This document shows, one piece after another, positions 13,953-29,644 of a stretch of 35,209 bases of DNA. The DNA comes from an uncultured Bacilli bacterium (GTDB taxonomy: Bacteria; Bacillota_I; Bacilli_A; RF39; UBA660), in NCBI GenBank assembly GCA_947624175.1, contig CANQJD010000009.1:1-35209 (forward strand), given 5' to 3'. The position numbers and the translations under genes were made by a program. Position 1 is the stretch's first letter. Each line of letters starts with the position of its first letter. A model generated the notes under the pieces. It was not told the DNA's origin and made no database searches. It saw nothing but the letters and a program-made list of their open reading frames with translations.

Positions 13953-15149
13953 CTAAATTAACTTTAATTCTCTATCTATATTTTCTAAATATAATTTCAT
14001 TTCTTTATCCAAATCTTTAAAATACAACTTCATTCCTTCTTCTAATATATTAAGACTAGCATTTATATCTCTTTCATTTACATTATGACAATTAGGACAT
14101 TTCCACTTTCTCACACTTAAATTCTTAACCTTTTCATTCCGAGAACCACACGAATAGCATATTTGACTACTAGGAAAGTAAGTACTAACTTGATAAACTT
14201 TCTTACCTAGCATCTTTGCTTTATATTTAAATTTATTTATAATGTCACTAAAGTTTGAATTAGATATAGATTTTGCTAAACTAGATGCACCATTTTCTAT
14301 CATTTCTTTGGTTTTTAAATTCTCTAAGAAAACAACATCATTTTCTTTTAATATTTTATTTATCATAATATTATTATAGAATTTCTTTGCATTTCTAATT
14401 TTTTGATTTAATTTTTGGATTTTTATAATTATCTTTTCTCTATTTTTACTTCCTTTTTTACTTCTTGCTAGCCATCTATTTAAACCCTTTAATTTATGTT
14501 CATATCTTGCTAGTTGTTCTTTTATATTTTCTATTTTTTCTCCATCACTTGTTGTCATTAATGTTTTTACTCCTAAATCTATTCCAACCATATTTAAAGA
14601 TGGTTTAAAACTAGGTACTTCTATATCTTCTGATACTAAAACATTAGCATAATATTTACCTGCAACTCTTTTAACTGTTACATTAATTATCTTTTTATCA
14701 AATGTAGTTAAGTTACGATAACCTTTTATTTTTATTTCAGATATTTTAGGTAATTTAATTGTTCTATTTATTAAATCCACTTTTATATTTTGATATTCTT
14801 TATCTTTATGTTCCCTTCTTATACAAGAAGTTCTATAACTACATAGTGAAGAATGTTTTTTGAATTTAGGCTTACCTCCTAAATTATTAAAATATCTAGT
14901 AAAAGCATTTTCTAAATTATCAATTGCACATCTTGGAATTATAGAATCTACTTCTTTCATCCAAGGATAATTTTCTACTAGACTTGGAATATCTTTTTTC
15001 ATATCTTTAAAGTTTAAACTATATTCTTTTTCTTTTAATTCTAAATAATGATTATAAACAAATCTTGTAGTTCCAAGAAAAGAATTAAGTTTTTTCTTTT
15101 GGTCATTATTTGGATATAACCTAAAGGTATAAGTTTTGAATTGACTCAT
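13953..15149 (-). mobile_element. tnpB: IS200/IS605-type TnpB (RNA-guided nuclease), no TnpA in window
   Basis: FRLYPNNDQKKKLNSFLGTTRFVYNHYL; RuvC-I NMVGIDLGVKTL; RuvC-II VVFLENLKTKEM; zinc finger CYSCGSRN...KCPNCH; RuvC-III NERDINASLNI. Uninterrupted ORF. Confidence 0.95.
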
Positions 15150-15374
15150 CTTTGTATCCTCACTTTCTTGACACATTATTATATATTTTATTTTTTATAT
15201 TGGCAAGACTTTTTTAATACTTTTTTTTAGTTTTTTTTCTATTTTTTTGATATCACTTTTTGTTCTTTTATATTTTGTATTTAATTAAGCCCAATAATTT
15301 CTATATGAATTTTGAAACACACTTTCCTATTGTATAAAACCTAATTAATTTTCATAGTATTTAGTGGTGATACA

Positions 15375-17118: not shown

Positions 17119-17152
17119 TTATTTGTTTTATTATAAATCTAGGAGGTTTTTT

Positions 17153-19564
17153 ATGCATGCTGTAATACTAAGAAGATTAAAAATAAACGATGAAAATTAT
17201 TATCAAATGTTAGATAAAGTTGAAGGTAAAGAAATAAGTGATGGATTTATTAGAGTTATTAAAGGACATAATAAATTTGAAGGGCAAGATATTGTTTCCA
17301 TAGATAATAAAGAAAACGAGGTTGTTTATTTAGAAATAGATGATATTTTAAATGAACAAATAAGAGGAAACGAAACAGAGTTTTTTAAGAATGATATAGA
17401 TAATATGATCATACCAATCGATGATATTGTTGAAAAAAATAAAGTTATTTTGGCCTTTTATAATAAATATAAAGATTTTCGAATTATTCCAGATTATAAT
17501 TTAGATGAGTGTATTAATTCATTAGAGGCAAAATTAAAATCAAAAGTTTTAGGTCAAGATGAAGTAATTGAAAAACTTATTAGTAAAATATACAATAATC
17601 AAATGTATTTTAAATCTGATTTAGCTATTGATGTTATGCGTAAAAACAAACGTAATGCTTTAATCATGGGACCTATTGGAACTGGTAAAACAACTATCAA
17701 AAATGCTTTAGTTGAATCTAGTTCGGAAATACCTATTGTTGAAATTGAGTTAACTGATAGTTATTTAAGTGATGCAGCTAATATTGTTAATTTTTTAACA
17801 AATGCTAGTAAAGGTAATTTATATTTGGCTCAAAGAGGAATTGTGGTAATTGATAATATTAATTCTAATAATTCTAAATTTTCAACTGATGAAGATGGGA
17901 TCGATGATGAAAATTTATATTTAAAATCATTAGAAAAATTAATTAAGTCAACTAAAATTTATTTTCCAACTAAAAATGATGAAACTTTTGCATTTGATTT
18001 TTCTTTAATAACTTTTGTTTGTTTCGTAGATACTTATTATAAAGAAGAAGATGAATCTAAAAATTATTATGAAAAAATGCATAATGAAGATTATTTAGAT
18101 TTAGGTCTTACAGGAGAATTTTTAGTTACTTGTTTTGATGATGAAATTATTTATATGAATGAAATGACAGAAGAATTAGCTTTAAAGATTTTGAAAGATA
18201 AAAACTTATCGCCTTTATATCAATATAAGAAAACTTTAGAAAATTCTGGACGGAAAGTAAAAGTTAGTAAAAAGTTTGTTGATTTGTTAATTGAAAGAGG
18301 TTTAGAAACCAATGAAGGGTTTGATGGAATTATTCGATTTTTTAAATATGCTGTTGAAACCAAAGATAGAAACTTAAAAAATATTGTTTTTAGGGAAAGC
18401 GATTTAAAGAATTTAAGAGTAGGTTCAGCAGGTACAGATTTTTTAGAAGATATGGATGATGAAGATGAATATGGTACTAATACAGAAAAAGTAACTTCTT
18501 CTGATGATGGACTTGATGTTGATGTTAAAAATCGAACTATCAATGGCTTACATGTTATGGATGCTGTTAATTTAATTAAAAAAGAAATTAAGGGGCAAGA
18601 TGAACAAGTATTTAGAATTGTTAATGCTTTTTATAACCATACTTTAAATAGGTATAAAGGATTTTCAGAAGATGAATTTAGAAAACTAAAACAAAATGTT
18701 TTCTTGATAGCTTCAACTGGAGTTGGAAAAACAGCTATCTTTGAAGCCTTAGCAAGAACTTTTAAATTACCTTTTAAAAGAGATTCTATTAATAGTTATA
18801 CGGCTAGTGGTTATGTTGGTAAAAGTGTTGAAGATTTAATTTTAGGTTTAATCTCTTCAGCTAGCGAAAATGCTACGAAAGCTCAATATGGTATTTTAGG
18901 TTTAGATGAATTTGATAAATTAGCAAGGGATTCCGGAGATGTTGGATTTGGAAGAAAAGTTCAAGAAGAATTATTAACTTTAATTGAAGGTGACGTCAGA
19001 GATGTTCAAAAGAGTATTTATTCCAAGCCTTTTAAGTTTAATACTGAATACTTATTTATTATACTAATGGGAGCTTGTCAAGATATTGATAAAGTAATAG
19101 AAAATAGAATAAAAAATTCAAGAAAATTAGGTTTTGCTAATAATGAAAAAGCTATCTCAAAAGAAGTAACCAGAAAAGATTTGCTGGCTTATGGTTTTGA
19201 AGAACAAGTTCTAGCAAGAGTTCCTAATATTATAAGATTAAATGATTTATCAAAAGAAGTATTATTAGAAATCATTGAAAGTGAAATGGGTTATGTTAAC
19301 TTAATGAAAAGGTCTTATGAACTATCTAATATAAAAATAAACATGACTGATAACTTTAAACATAATTTAGCAAGTGAAGCCTTTGATTTAAAAGTTGGTG
19401 CTAGAGGTATTAGACAATTATTTGAAGTTATAGTAAATGAGATAGATAAAAATATTCAAAATGGTGATATATCAGAAGTTAATATCGGGGATAATGCTTT
19501 ACATGATTTTACGGATATAACTTATATAAAAAGAAAAAATAAAGTTAAAAAGTTAAAAAAATAA
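17153..19564 (+). CDS. Tandem ClpX-like AAA+ ATPase (two AAA+ modules, no zinc-binding domain)
   Basis: D1: GPIGTGKT, LAQRGIVVIDNINS. D2: ASTGVGKT, SYTASGYVGKSVEDLILGLIS, YGILGLDEFDKLAR, RKLGFANNEK, VLARVPNIIRLNDLS, KVGARGIRQLFE. RBS taggaggtttttt before ATG 17153. Confidence 0.85.
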   Translation: MHAVILRRLKINDENYYQMLDKVEGKEISDGFIRVIKGHNKFEGQDIVSIDNKENEVVYLEIDDILNEQIRGNETEFFKNDIDNMIIPIDDIVEKNKVILAFYNKYKDFRIIPDYNLDECINSLEAKLKSKVLGQDEVIEKLISKIYNNQMYFKSDLAIDVMRKNKRNALIMGPIGTGKTTIKNALVESSSEIPIVEIELTDSYLSDAANIVNFLTNASKGNLYLAQRGIVVIDNINSNNSKFSTDEDGIDDENLYLKSLEKLIKSTKIYFPTKNDETFAFDFSLITFVCFVDTYYKEEDESKNYYEKMHNEDYLDLGLTGEFLVTCFDDEIIYMNEMTEELALKILKDKNLSPLYQYKKTLENSGRKVKVSKKFVDLLIERGLETNEGFDGIIRFFKYAVETKDRNLKNIVFRESDLKNLRVGSAGTDFLEDMDDEDEYGTNTEKVTSSDDGLDVDVKNRTINGLHVMDAVNLIKKEIKGQDEQVFRIVNAFYNHTLNRYKGFSEDEFRKLKQNVFLIASTGVGKTAIFEALARTFKLPFKRDSINSYTASGYVGKSVEDLILGLISSASENATKAQYGILGLDEFDKLARDSGDVGFGRKVQEELLTLIEGDVRDVQKSIYSKPFKFNTEYLFIILMGACQDIDKVIENRIKNSRKLGFANNEKAISKEVTRKDLLAYGFEEQVLARVPNIIRLNDLSKEVLLEIIESEMGYVNLMKRSYELSNIKINMTDNFKHNLASEAFDLKVGARGIRQLFEVIVNEIDKNIQNGDISEVNIGDNALHDFTDITYIKRKNKVKKLKK

Positions 19565-19761: not shown

Positions 19762-19790
19762 TTGACATATTTTGTAATCTATGTTATAGT
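19762..19790 (+). promoter_or_regulatory. Promoter P2 of Rpn-like gene
   Basis: Consensus TTGACA (19762-19767), 17 nt, TATAGT (19785-19790). Confidence 0.75.
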
Positions 19791-19812
19791 CAATTTGCAA
19801 GGAGGAATTAGT

Positions 19813-20874
19813 ATGACAAAAGAAGCAAATAATCATAAAAAAGGAGAAATAATTCAATGTATTAAAGATACTAATGCTAAAGCTTTATTTGGTAATGTTA
19901 ATAATCTAGATATTACAACTTTTATAGTATCTTGTATTTTAAAAATAGATTATAAAGAATTAGAAGGAAATATAAGTTTACAACCTTTAAAAATAATCGA
20001 AGGAGTAAAAAATGAAATGGTTCCAGAATGTGATGTAGTTATAAAAGTAAAGTTAAATAATAAGGAAAGAATAATCGTATTAGAATTTAATTACTTCACA
20101 ATGGATTTAGCAAGTTTCTTTAAGAATAGCAATTATACTTTTAAAGAGAAGAAAAACTTATCAAAAGCTCATCAATTAAAATTAAATAGAAATTTATTTT
20201 ACGTATTGAAAATAATAAGTAGTAGAATTAAGAAAGGAAATAACTATACTGAGATAATACCTGTAACCTTAGTAAACTTTAATACATTTTCTAAAAAGAA
20301 TAAGAAATTAAATAAATATGGAGTAGTAGATATATTAGATACCAGTGATTATTATTCAGAAAATTTAGAAATATTTAATTTAGATATTGTCAAATGTTAT
20401 CAAGCAGTGTATAATAATAAGTATCAAGGAAGTAATATATATGAAGAGAATTTAATAATAATGGGTGCTATAATGGCTACTAATAAATATAGTGAAGTAA
20501 AAGAGCTAGTAGCAAGACTTCATATAAAAGAAGAGATAAAAGAAAGGATGATGGAGGTGATCGAGAATATGATGGGAGAAGGAGAATTAGGTCTATATTA
20601 TTATCCAGACCAAGAAAAGAAGGATTTTGATGAGGCTTTATTAGAGTTATGTAGGAAAGAAGGAAGGTCTGAAGGAATTAATATTGGAATGTCTAAAGGA
20701 ATTAATATTGGAAGATCTGAAGGATTAACATTAGGTCGTGCTGAACAACAAAGAGATATAATTATTAATATGTATAAAGCTAATGAAGTAATAGAAAAAA
20801 TTAGCAAATATACAGAATTACCAATTAAAAAGATTAAACAAGTAATTAATGATTATTTGAAAAATAATAAATAA
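19813..20874 (+). CDS. Rpn/PD-(D/E)XK nuclease family transposase-like protein
   Basis: ALFGNVNNLDITTFIVSCIL, ECDVVIKVKLNNKERIIVLEFNYF (D...ExN), LNKYGVVDILDTSDYYS, C-terminal EGRSEGINIGMSKGINIGRSEGLTLGRAEQQ; RBS aaggaggaatt. Confidence 0.8.
   Translation: MTKEANNHKKGEIIQCIKDTNAKALFGNVNNLDITTFIVSCILKIDYKELEGNISLQPLKIIEGVKNEMVPECDVVIKVKLNNKERIIVLEFNYFTMDLASFFKNSNYTFKEKKNLSKAHQLKLNRNLFYVLKIISSRIKKGNNYTEIIPVTLVNFNTFSKKNKKLNKYGVVDILDTSDYYSENLEIFNLDIVKCYQAVYNNKYQGSNIYEENLIIMGAIMATNKYSEVKELVARLHIKEEIKERMMEVIENMMGEGELGLYYYPDQEKKDFDEALLELCRKEGRSEGINIGMSKGINIGRSEGLTLGRAEQQRDIIINMYKANEVIEKISKYTELPIKKIKQVINDYLKNNK
20668..20739 (+). repeat. Three 24-bp in-frame tandem repeats
   Basis: tctgaaggaattaatattggaatg / tctaaaggaattaatattggaaga / tctgaaggattaacattaggtcgt (8 aa: S[EK]GINIGx). 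Confidence 0.85.
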
Positions 20875-21004: not shown

Positions 21005-22441
21005 ATGAATAAGAAAACAGTTTTGTTTTTAATAAATGGATTTGGTGTTGAAAAAAAAGAATCTTTTTCTATTTATGATGCATCTATAATGCCAACTTTT
21101 GATATGTTAACAAAAACTCATATGTTTTCAACTATTGATTCAAAAGTTAGTAATTATTTTGATGCTTATAGAAATATTAGTTTAGATGTAAATGAATTAT
21201 ATAATTATACTTTAATAGATAAAGATGTTGTTAATAAAACTTTAGTTAATAATCAGGTATTACAAAAATTAAAAAATGATTTTGATACTAAAAAGAGTAA
21301 TTTACATATTTTTTGTTTAGTTGATACAAGTATGAAGATAGTTGAACATTTAAAAGAAACTTTAAAATATCTAAATCCTAATAAAGATAAAAAGGTTTAT
21401 TTACATTTAATCATCTCAAGTATTAATATTGAAGATTATAAAGGATTAATTGAAGTGTTTAGTCATCTTAATATTGAAATGGCAAGTTATGCTCCAATTG
21501 GGTTTATCATGGGATTATCGGCTATTGATAATACAGCGAAAGCAGTTGATTTAAACTTCTTCTTTAAAATGTTTATTTCAAAAGTTGGAGAAAAGTGGCA
21601 ATCATTTACTCAAAAATTTGATGTATTATATGCAACAAGGGCTTTACCTAGAAATACGAAACCATTTATGATTAATACAAATTTTGAACTTAGCAAAGAT
21701 GATATTTTCTTCTTCTATAATTATGATAATATTAATTTAACTAACTTTATAGATTCTTTATCAGGTATTGCTTTTGGAAGTGAAACTAATAACTTTTCAT
21801 ATTATTCATTATTTAATGTTACGAGTAATAAACAAATACCATTTATGTATAATCTAGAAACTGCTAAATATTCAATGGTATCTAATCTTGAAAGTATTAA
21901 AGCAACCGGTTTAGTTTTATGTTCTAATGATAAAATACCGATTATCAATTATTTCTGTAATGGACTTAAAAATGAAGCAACTGATACTTTAAAATTTGTA
22001 GATATTACACCATATGAAAATAATCCAACGGGAATAGTATCAATTATTAATCAATTTAATAGTGATTTAATTATTGTTAATTTTGATGTTGATAATGTTT
22101 CAACAGTTGATGAATTAAAAACGAAACTTACGAATGTTGATAATGTTTTAAAAGCCGTTTATGATAATATTAATGGAAGTAAATATACTTTGATTGTTTC
22201 ATCTTTATATGGAATGAATAAACTTTTAAAAACTGAAAGGGGTACCAATGCTAATGTTATTTTTGCAGGAAGAGTACCATTTATCTATATAGATGATTTT
22301 ATAACAGGTAAAAATTATTTAATTGAACCAGGTACAATTAATGATATACCTAAAAGTGTTTATAAAAATATTAAAAGAGATAGTAACTTTGATTCCATTG
22401 TTGAAAAGAAAAATGGTTTATATAAACTATTCTTTAAGTAG
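21005..22441 (+). CDS. Divergent alkaline-phosphatase-superfamily / cofactor-independent phosphoglycerate mutase-like protein, probably catalytically inactive
   Basis: Overall order resembles GpmI: LFLINGFG (cf. DGWG), MPTFDMLT (cf. TPNLDxL), DDIFFFYNYDNINLTNFI (cf. ..FFNFRPDRARQ), LIIVNFDVDNVSTVDELKTKLTNVDNVL (cf. NxxNPDMVGHTGxxxAAIKAVEAVD), YTLIVSSLYGMN (cf. TADHGN). Confidence 0.6.
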   Translation: MNKKTVLFLINGFGVEKKESFSIYDASIMPTFDMLTKTHMFSTIDSKVSNYFDAYRNISLDVNELYNYTLIDKDVVNKTLVNNQVLQKLKNDFDTKKSNLHIFCLVDTSMKIVEHLKETLKYLNPNKDKKVYLHLIISSINIEDYKGLIEVFSHLNIEMASYAPIGFIMGLSAIDNTAKAVDLNFFFKMFISKVGEKWQSFTQKFDVLYATRALPRNTKPFMINTNFELSKDDIFFFYNYDNINLTNFIDSLSGIAFGSETNNFSYYSLFNVTSNKQIPFMYNLETAKYSMVSNLESIKATGLVLCSNDKIPIINYFCNGLKNEATDTLKFVDITPYENNPTGIVSIINQFNSDLIIVNFDVDNVSTVDELKTKLTNVDNVLKAVYDNINGSKYTLIVSSLYGMNKLLKTERGTNANVIFAGRVPFIYIDDFITGKNYLIEPGTINDIPKSVYKNIKRDSNFDSIVEKKNGLYKLFFK

Positions 22442-27250: not shown

Positions 27251-29644
27251 ATGAAAAATCAAGATTTAACCAAAGAATTAAAGAACAAAATTAATAGGAC
27301 AAGATTTAGAGAAGGTTTTAAAGGCCAATTATTTAATAGTCATTTAATAGAAAAAATGCAAATAGATTTACTTACTAATTTACTTTCTGCTAATGACTAT
27401 GATTTTAATATGTATTTAAGTTTTTTACTTAAATTTTCCAAAACTAAGAAGGGATTTTTAAATTATGAAGATAAACTTTCCATAATTAGTAATTATTTAA
27501 TACTAAATATGGGAATAATTAATACAAGTGAATTAATGAATTTACTAATTGATACAGATTTAATCGAAAATCCTGATATTATAAGATTTTCTTATAACTT
27601 TTTAAATATAAGTGATATAGAAAAAGTTGATGCTTTAACCAATATTTTATATTCTTTAAATGGTAAATTAAATAGTCTTAATTTAAGACATATATTTGGT
27701 TTAGTAAATAAAGTAAATGATTCGAAAACTTTATTTCAAATAACCCATTTATTTGAAAAAAATATTATTAAAGATGATAAAAATTTAAATGATTATCTAA
27801 AATTAATCTATGAAAATACTGATAATTATAATTTAGAATTTTTCATGAGACTTTTATATATAAGAGAAGTAAGAGAAATTCCTAATATTAAAGAATTACT
27901 AAAAAAATATATTTTAAATATTAATAATTCTAATGTTAATATGAATGATATTAATACTAAAAATGAAATATTTCTTGCAATATTTAAAAATTTAGATATG
28001 TTAGAATCACATTATTTAGAGAATGTTTTAGATTTTGTAAATTCATGTGATACTAGTTATTATCCTATAATTAGAAATTTAATTAATAATAAAAATATGT
28101 TTAAAGATAGAAACTTCTATGTTTTATTCCAAGCTTTAAAAGAAACGAAAACTGAAATTGAAAGAGATTTCTTAATCTCTATTATGAAAAATCCAAGAAT
28201 CATTAGCAGTGAACTTCAAATTAAAGCGGGATTAGAATTTTTAAAGAAAACAAAAGATGAAAATAAATTAGTTGCTTTCTATAAACTATTTATAGTTGGA
28301 CCTTTAAAAGATGATAGTTTATATTCCGAATTTTCTATCCTTATGCAAGATAACTTATTAAAATGTAAAACTAAAGAACAAACATTAAGCTTAATTAAAT
28401 TAGCACCTACTTTAAAAACATCTAAATTTAAATATGATATTTTAAAAATAGTTTTAAATACTAATAATAACTATGCTTTAGAAATATATCCTGAATTATT
28501 AAAAATAAGTTATGTTAAAGAAGATTTAAAAACTTTAGATTTAATGAAAAAATTAACTAATCTTGAAAATGAAAGTCAACTTATGTTAATTAGAAAATTA
28601 GTAAGTGTAGAAAAGATATTTAAAAACAATAATTTTAATTATTTAGTTGATGAAGTATTAAGAAAAAGAAATATGAAATTAGTATATCCTCTTACTTATA
28701 TAGATTTATTTAAAGAACCAAATAATGAAATATTATTTGAAAATAATATCTTTCTAAAATTTTGGGATATCGTTTTAAATATTAAGAATCATAGTCAATT
28801 TAATTTCTTAATTAATATGTTAAAGTATAAAAAATTATTATTAGATAATAAAAATATAGAGATTATAAAAGATTTTATTTCTAGTAATAAAGAAGAATAT
28901 AAGTTTAAATATTTAGAAGAATATATTAGAAATAATTCTAGTAAAGATAAAGAGTTTACTTTAGATAGTGATAGAAGTAAAACAATTATTATGTTACTTA
29001 AAGATTGTAAAACAGATTATCAAGCTTTATCTTTAATTAAAGTTAGTAAGTTAGTTAAAGATTCTAGTGAAGAAGCTGATTTATTAGTAAGAGTTATTTG
29101 TCTTGAAAGTGAAGATAAATGTAATGAATTAATTAGTTTATTAGAAATACCTAATGTTTTAGAAAGTCCTAAATTTAAAGAAATATTATATCATTATGAT
29201 AAATGTGATGATTTAATGCAAAAGAATAGTATTTTAGAACTTTTAAATATAGATGGAATAATGGAATCAGATTATCTTATTGGTTATTTAATGATTATAA
29301 GAAGACTTAAAACTTTACCTCAAATTCAGGCTTTATTAAAAGTTTTAAGTGAATATCCTGATTTAAAAGATTATGAATTATTTACGTTTTGTAAAAGAAT
29401 TATGTTTATAACTAATCAAGCTAAATTAATTTTAGTAGGTGAAATGATTATTGTATCTAAATCTATGCCTTATGAACTAACTGATTTAGTAATCGAGAAA
29501 ATAGTTTTAGCAGATTCTGATAAGATGATTGAAACGGTTGAATATGTTGGTAATTTAATCACAAAATATCATGGGGAAGAAAGTCCGGATATAGAAAACT
29601 TATTAATAGATTTAAAACATATAAAAACATTAAGAAAGAAGTAG
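27251..29644 (+). CDS. Large hypothetical protein, Leu/Lys/Asn-rich, probable alpha-solenoid
   Basis: 797-aa ORF with RBS aaaggggg; repeated helical segments (e.g. EFLKKTKDENKLVAFYKLF, LIKLAPTLKTSKFKYDILKIVLN, SLIKVSKLVKDSSEEADLLVRVI). Confidence 0.75.
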   Translation: MKNQDLTKELKNKINRTRFREGFKGQLFNSHLIEKMQIDLLTNLLSANDYDFNMYLSFLLKFSKTKKGFLNYEDKLSIISNYLILNMGIINTSELMNLLIDTDLIENPDIIRFSYNFLNISDIEKVDALTNILYSLNGKLNSLNLRHIFGLVNKVNDSKTLFQITHLFEKNIIKDDKNLNDYLKLIYENTDNYNLEFFMRLLYIREVREIPNIKELLKKYILNINNSNVNMNDINTKNEIFLAIFKNLDMLESHYLENVLDFVNSCDTSYYPIIRNLINNKNMFKDRNFYVLFQALKETKTEIERDFLISIMKNPRIISSELQIKAGLEFLKKTKDENKLVAFYKLFIVGPLKDDSLYSEFSILMQDNLLKCKTKEQTLSLIKLAPTLKTSKFKYDILKIVLNTNNNYALEIYPELLKISYVKEDLKTLDLMKKLTNLENESQLMLIRKLVSVEKIFKNNNFNYLVDEVLRKRNMKLVYPLTYIDLFKEPNNEILFENNIFLKFWDIVLNIKNHSQFNFLINMLKYKKLLLDNKNIEIIKDFISSNKEEYKFKYLEEYIRNNSSKDKEFTLDSDRSKTIIMLLKDCKTDYQALSLIKVSKLVKDSSEEADLLVRVICLESEDKCNELISLLEIPNVLESPKFKEILYHYDKCDDLMQKNSILELLNIDGIMESDYLIGYLMIIRRLKTLPQIQALLKVLSEYPDLKDYELFTFCKRIMFITNQAKLILVGEMIIVSKSMPYELTDLVIEKIVLADSDKMIETVEYVGNLITKYHGEESPDIENLLIDLKHIKTLRKK

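Follow-up and report, generated by a model that had tools for sequence, protein, structure and literature searches.

Among bacterial Clp unfoldases, the double-ring forms known to cooperate with ClpP are Hsp100 proteins (ClpA, ClpC, and their kin), and ClpA carries a GF-type ClpP loop in its second AAA+ module (D2). A loop of this type is also found in D2 of ClpC, and ClpI, also a double-ring Hsp100 protein, has its ATPase motifs intact (PMC10149685). In ClpX, the counterparts of the catalytic Walker B glutamate, the arginine finger, and sensor 2 touch nucleotide (PMC7112951, PMC7112952), with the finger working in trans on the neighboring subunit (PMC7112952); Ile/Leu-Gly-Phe loops dock on ClpP (PMC7112951, PMC7112952), and an RKH loop has a part in substrate binding (PMC7112951). 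In Pex1/Pex6, the first module (D1) keeps Walker A and lacks the Walker B glutamate, finger, and pore loop, with D2 as the motor; in yeast Pex1 D1, asparagine replaces the glutamate, and D1 has been proposed to aid assembly (PMC9265785).

Here, we analyzed a 35,209-nucleotide stretch of DNA (the window) from an uncultured Bacilli bacterium of the RF39 lineage, which encodes a tandem ClpX-like protein that shares features with each of these systems. Like ClpA, ClpC, and ClpI, it runs in the order N-domain, D1, D2; unlike theirs, which belong to the Hsp100 type and have active ATPase motifs, its modules are of the ClpX type and D1 appears inactive, and the M-domain of ClpB, ClpC, and ClpI sets those proteins further apart. 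Because ClpI is an Hsp100 protein whose ATPase motifs are intact, its architecture is other than that of the tandem. Both modules fall in the ClpX clade, and D2 has the GYVG, DE.DK, arginine finger, sensor-2, and xGF elements of ClpX; ClpX, however, has one module, whereas the tandem has two, with an inactive-looking D1, no zinc-binding domain, and no RKH motif in D2. The engineered single-chain ClpX pseudohexamers also consist of covalently joined ClpX modules (PMC7112951), but they are man-made and form one ring, while the tandem is natural and its D1 lacks a trans-acting finger. By motif pattern, the division of labor is that of Pex1/Pex6, an inactive D1 with an intact D2; Pex1/Pex6 are eukaryotic type II AAA+ proteins of another subfamily, in contrast to a bacterial protein with ClpX-derived rings and a ClpP-type loop in D2.

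The gene lies at positions 17153 to 19564 of the window on the forward strand, as do all of its features given below, and encodes 803 amino acids plus a stop codon; the 15 homologs of the genus are alike in length and architecture. Direct reading of the sequence places a Shine-Dalgarno AGGAGG at 17141 to 17146, ahead of the ATG at 17153. The AlphaFold2 monomer (mean pLDDT 80) has two complete AAA+ modules with a disordered linker between them. The N-terminal domain (aa 1 to 116; 17153 to 17500) is predicted to be mostly beta with a helix at its C-terminal end. D1 (aa 117 to 419; 17501 to 18409) comprises large and small domains with a degenerate active site, as judged from profile matches and the predicted fold. 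The linker (aa 420 to 454; 18410 to 18514) is acidic, variable (mean identity, 21%), and disordered, with pLDDT below 50 at aa 422 to 450, and leads into an intact D2 (aa 455 to 793; 18515 to 19531) that matches ClpX in NCBIfam, PDB, and Foldseek searches.

A sequence-only reading of this gene had proposed that both halves are ClpX relatives, and profile-profile comparison, PDB searches, model scores, phylogeny, and predicted structure concur in this. The tandem protein scores 200 bits against the NCBIfam ClpX model NF003745 (cutoff, 359), with the best stretch in D2, and 172 bits against TIGR00382, also ClpX (cutoff, 370.75). In a PDB sequence search, D2 matches solved ClpX chains at an E value of 2.6e-36, and by Foldseek it matches ClpX at 1e-22; ClpX chains appear throughout the best 50 Foldseek matches of the predicted model. 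A D1 profile built from 13 homologs finds ClpX as its top match among PDB sequences (E = 2.6e-21), followed by HslU, with other matches weak. D1 and D2 profiles align with each other over 277 columns, the small domain included (99.4%; E = 2e-21). A canonical-ClpX model from the same class outscores ClpB/C D1 and D2 models, each built from at most four sequences, for 15 of 15 D1s and 15 of 15 D2s. In a tree of 99 modules, the D1s form a single clade (100/100), as do the D2s (100/100), and both sit in a ClpX-like group apart from the D2 of ClpB/C (100/99). The profile searches thus do not place the halves in different AAA+ clades such as a ClpA/B type, and an Hsp100 origin of either half is ruled out by the tree, the PDB profile matches, and the ClpX-versus-ClpB/C model scores. 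Together, these comparisons establish, at the level of sequence and predicted fold, that both modules share ClpX ancestry.

We surveyed motifs across the aligned 15 full-length tandem proteins of the genus (g1), in which identity goes down to about 40%. Walker A of D1, GPIGTGKT (aa 173 to 180; 17669 to 17692), fits the pattern GxxGxGK[TS], and GK[TS] is present in all 15. D1 Walker B reads GIVVIDNI (17837 to 17860); the asparagine reported in place of the catalytic glutamate is there (VVIDN), the aspartate is kept in 15/15, and the glutamate position holds N, S, G, G, D, G, G, G, G, T, G, G, G, G, and L across the proteins, never glutamate. At the pore loop 1 position, D1 reads IELTDSYLSD (17744 to 17773; GYVG in 0/15). 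The sequence also reads LVTCF at the arginine-finger position (LVTCFDDE, 18122 to 18145) and GFDGII at the sensor-2 position (NEGFDGII, 18311 to 18334), both as had been pointed out: no arginine aligns to the finger, a GR[LFI]P-like motif occurs in 0/15, and the sensor-2 arginine is lost (0/15) within a G[FM]xGI motif found in all 15. The GF loop is likewise missing from every D1.

The D2 motifs GVGKT, GYVG, LDEFDK, ARVP, GARGIR, and KLGF were all located where the earlier reading had put them. Walker A (ASTGVGKT, 18710 to 18733) and the DE.DK of Walker B (GILGLDEFDK, 18890 to 18919) are present in 15/15, as is the arginine of the finger (LARVPN, 19211 to 19228); pore loop 1 (YTASGYVGKS, 18797 to 18826) conforms to G[YF]xG in 14 proteins and reads GIVG in one (L011), and the sensor-2 arginine (VGARGIR, 19394 to 19414) is kept in 14, with alanine in the other (L015). 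At the position of the ClpX IGF loop, D2 has SRKLGFAN (19118 to 19141; KLGF is aa 658 to 661), in a segment that is disordered in the AlphaFold2 model (aa 658 to 666). GF is invariant in this loop (15/15), although the flanking residues differ in length and sequence; 13 proteins have [LIVM]GF, and two have AGF (L018 and L019). The RKH loop is found in 0 of 15 tandems versus 5 of 7 canonical ClpX proteins of the class, and so substrate choice probably differs from that of ClpX.

Homologs that lack the D2 GF loop or keep a catalytic glutamate in D1 Walker B were sought among the 15 tandems, and there are none. Of the conservation anticipated from the window alone, GF in D2 and the loss of the D1 glutamate hold throughout, but the residue that replaces the glutamate varies and [LIVM]GF falls short of universal. 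D1 evolves faster than D2 (mean identity, 44% versus 51%), with D1 identity as low as 34%. The motif pattern is not chance, since the D1 glutamate is absent and Walker A kept across 15 homologs, and retention of the Walker A lysine and Walker B aspartate in all of them despite this divergence implies selection for nucleotide binding. D1 of the g1 tandems would, on these residues, bind ATP without hydrolyzing it.

The reading that we favor, with somewhat better than even confidence, is a ClpX-derived double-ring unfoldase in which D2 would be the motor, probably feeding ClpP, and D1 a scaffold that binds ATP. With two ClpX modules joined in one chain, six chains would probably assemble as a stack of two rings. 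The upper one, made of the N-domain and D1, would hold ATP unhydrolyzed, serving as a collar at the entry and as a static scaffold for assembly; the lower ring, made of D2, would hydrolyze ATP, pull substrate by its GYVG pore loops, and most likely dock on the genome's ClpP through its LGF loops. Because the finger acts in trans, working D2 sites need an adjacent D2, which favors separate D1 and D2 rings. Three chains could instead form a single ring of six modules with D1 and D2 alternating, a natural counterpart of the laboratory-made linked ClpX pseudohexamers. Engineered single-chain hexamers with short linkers do function, even with several inactive subunits (PMC7112951), and the roughly 30 disordered residues of the tandem linker are ample for such a ring. 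We nevertheless consider this arrangement quite unlikely, because each D2 site would face a D1 that is fingerless in 15/15 and would have to take its trans-acting finger from it. The ring would also lack half of its pore loops and half of its docking loops, and the joint loss from D1 of the trans finger, pore loop, and docking loop suits a separate D1 ring better.

In the favored double-ring reading, the entry side would carry the N-domain, which AlphaFold2 models with confidence (pLDDT 87 over aa 1 to 118). The sequence-only reading had described a novel region of about 150 aa in place of the zinc-binding domain. The absence of that domain stands, as the N-domain has no Pfam match; the length comes to about 115 aa, and aa 117 to 131 form the first helix of D1 and so lie outside the N-domain. 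Its fold has no PDB match at E ≤ 0.001. The N-domain takes the place of the ClpX zinc-binding domain and, we infer, probably chooses substrates. Among the N-domains compared, its profile matches only that of a tandem from a second genus, g107 (77%; E = 2e-5). A domain common to the single-ring relatives described below was also considered: the first strands look alike by eye, but the similarity between profiles does not reach significance (best probability, 11.7%).

Of the 17 genomes of the genus, 15 encode a full-length tandem, and the other two are 70% and 89% complete; ClpP is present in 17/17. Four proteins in the window's genome match PF07724: a ClpB-like protein (L001), which has no GF loop, a ClpC-like protein (L002), Lon, and the tandem itself. 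A separate canonical clpX was looked for in this genome, and none was found; gene absences here are by sequence searches of genomes. No match to the ClpX zinc-binding domain (PF06689) exceeded the cutoff in the 243 family genomes, which span 148 genera, or in 117 genomes of the order, a set that overlaps that of the family; the controls of this search were positive in 10 of 14 cases. The genome has one ClpP, with catalytic motifs that read intact (GMAASMGA and MIHQPLGG). The ClpC-like gene (L002, 60 to 2291) has an AIGF loop in its D2 and is a second candidate ClpP partner.

Outside the family, no tandem occurs among the matches listed from 296 genomes of the class, where open frames reach at most 465 aa against about 800 aa for the tandem. 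Within the family, the other frames of at least 750 aa that we read (L112, L119, and L122) each have one module preceded by a long N-terminal part and are not tandems. Beyond the tandems reported here, no natural tandem ClpX was found in the genomes searched or is described in the literature searched, and no paper in that literature, outside which most subscription papers lie, links RF39 with ClpX. Named public relatives come from uncultured Bacilli and Clostridia of gut and rumen metagenomes, including roe deer, sheep, and a "Lapin" series that we take to be rabbit.

Single-ring ClpX-like proteins of about 450 to 760 aa occur in about 40% of sampled family genomes (a count from the tabulated matches), and their N termini are other than the zinc-binding domain. 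Most have an xGF motif, which is absent from one compact group of about 450 to 470 aa. In one ClpX-like protein (L029, 1387 to 2781), the N-terminal region looks like the tail of an ImmA/IrrE-type peptidase (NEFAMHFLIP). Separate single-ring genes lie in adjacent pairs in L114 (2507 to 6507), L115 (2599 to 6008), and L116 (1381 to 4587), and such pairs are a possible route to a fused tandem. For genera g58, g97, and g48, searches of two genomes per genus (G074, G207, G113, G239, G064, and G198) detected no ClpP at E ≤ 10, yet most of the ClpX-like proteins encoded there keep xGF (MGF and IGF; AGF in one).

Retention of xGF in genera without detectable ClpP is the strongest caution about the tandem, since the loop alone is then no proof of ClpP docking. 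The same double-ring machine might unfold or disassemble its targets as a standalone remodeler without ClpP, with the GF loop kept for another reason. Besides these single-ring relatives, the AGF of two tandem members and the loss of the ClpX RKH loop from D2 speak for such a remodeler, and the ClpC-like protein, with its AIGF loop, could serve ClpP instead, which also counts directly against a partnership with the tandem. Invariance of GF in all 15 tandems within an otherwise variable loop, and ClpP in every genome of the genus, weigh the other way, and we regard the ClpP-independent machine as a rather unlikely alternative.

Genus g107 contains two tandems, of 800 aa and 760 aa, and the gene for the 800-aa protein adjoins a DinB gene, whose product is 57% identical to the window's DinB, in the same position. 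The g107 D1 clusters with D1 in the tree (80/97, with long branches), and the g107 tandem is orthologous to that of g1. Both Walker A (GPRGHGKK and GTYGCNKE) and Walker B (FISE and FIKI) are lost from D1 in g107, while D2 keeps all motor motifs plus MGF or IGF. With D1 decayed and D2 intact there, the D2 motor alone is kept throughout. ATP binding by D1 thus appears to be retained in g1 and lost in g107. Loss of both Walker motifs from an orthologous D1, along with the faster evolution of D1, would fit a degenerating remnant that contributes nothing beyond what its D2 partner does; given that all 15 g1 proteins keep GK[TS] in Walker A and the aspartate in Walker B and that the D1 fold is predicted to be complete, we find this very improbable for g1.

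Instead of canonical ClpX, a two-unit ClpX is thus found in two related groups of uncultured bacteria from the gut, and the double-ring layout seems to have had a second, ClpX-derived origin in these bacteria, which lack the canonical protein. More tentatively, and with slightly less than even confidence, we suggest that this lineage lost canonical ClpX and then rebuilt a double-ring ClpP unfoldase from ClpX modules, independently of ClpA and ClpC, with an ATP-bound, nonhydrolyzing D1 and a new receptor domain, as part of a wider lineage-specific radiation with new N termini. The single-ring relatives, the tandem with a putatively ATP-binding D1, and the g107 tandem with a dead D1 form a natural series in which one can ask why one ring so frequently becomes inactive in two-ring motors and what a ClpX motor gains from a second ring. 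The fast-changing N-domains bear on how the ClpX family retargets after losing the zinc-binding domain and the RKH loop.

The gene order TspO, DinB, tandem, iPGM-like, DUF1538, PII-like is found in many of 13 related loci, as far as the contigs reach, and this conserved neighborhood indicates that the tandem is a stable chromosomal gene. Relatives of its N-terminal half were absent from 2.9 million viral contigs, which together with the chromosomal synteny rules out phage origin or carriage. SOS control was considered and set aside, as the window contains no GAACNNNNGTTC site, as was CtsR control, CtsR-like matches in the window being at chance level. The iPGM-like gene (21005 to 22441, forward strand; 478 aa), which weakly matches an iPGM N-terminal domain, immediately follows the tandem at most of the related loci, and its product is a possible functional partner. 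In the window, a forward-strand gene with a weak PDDEXK transposase match (19762 to 20874) sits between the two; in L036 and L037, its relatives are found upstream of the tandem. Farther downstream, a 797-aa forward-strand open reading frame (27251 to 29644) has no Pfam match at all. On the reverse strand, an IS605 OrfB/TnpB-like gene with a Cas12f1-like TNB domain (13953 to 15176) adjoins the TspO-DinB-tandem block.
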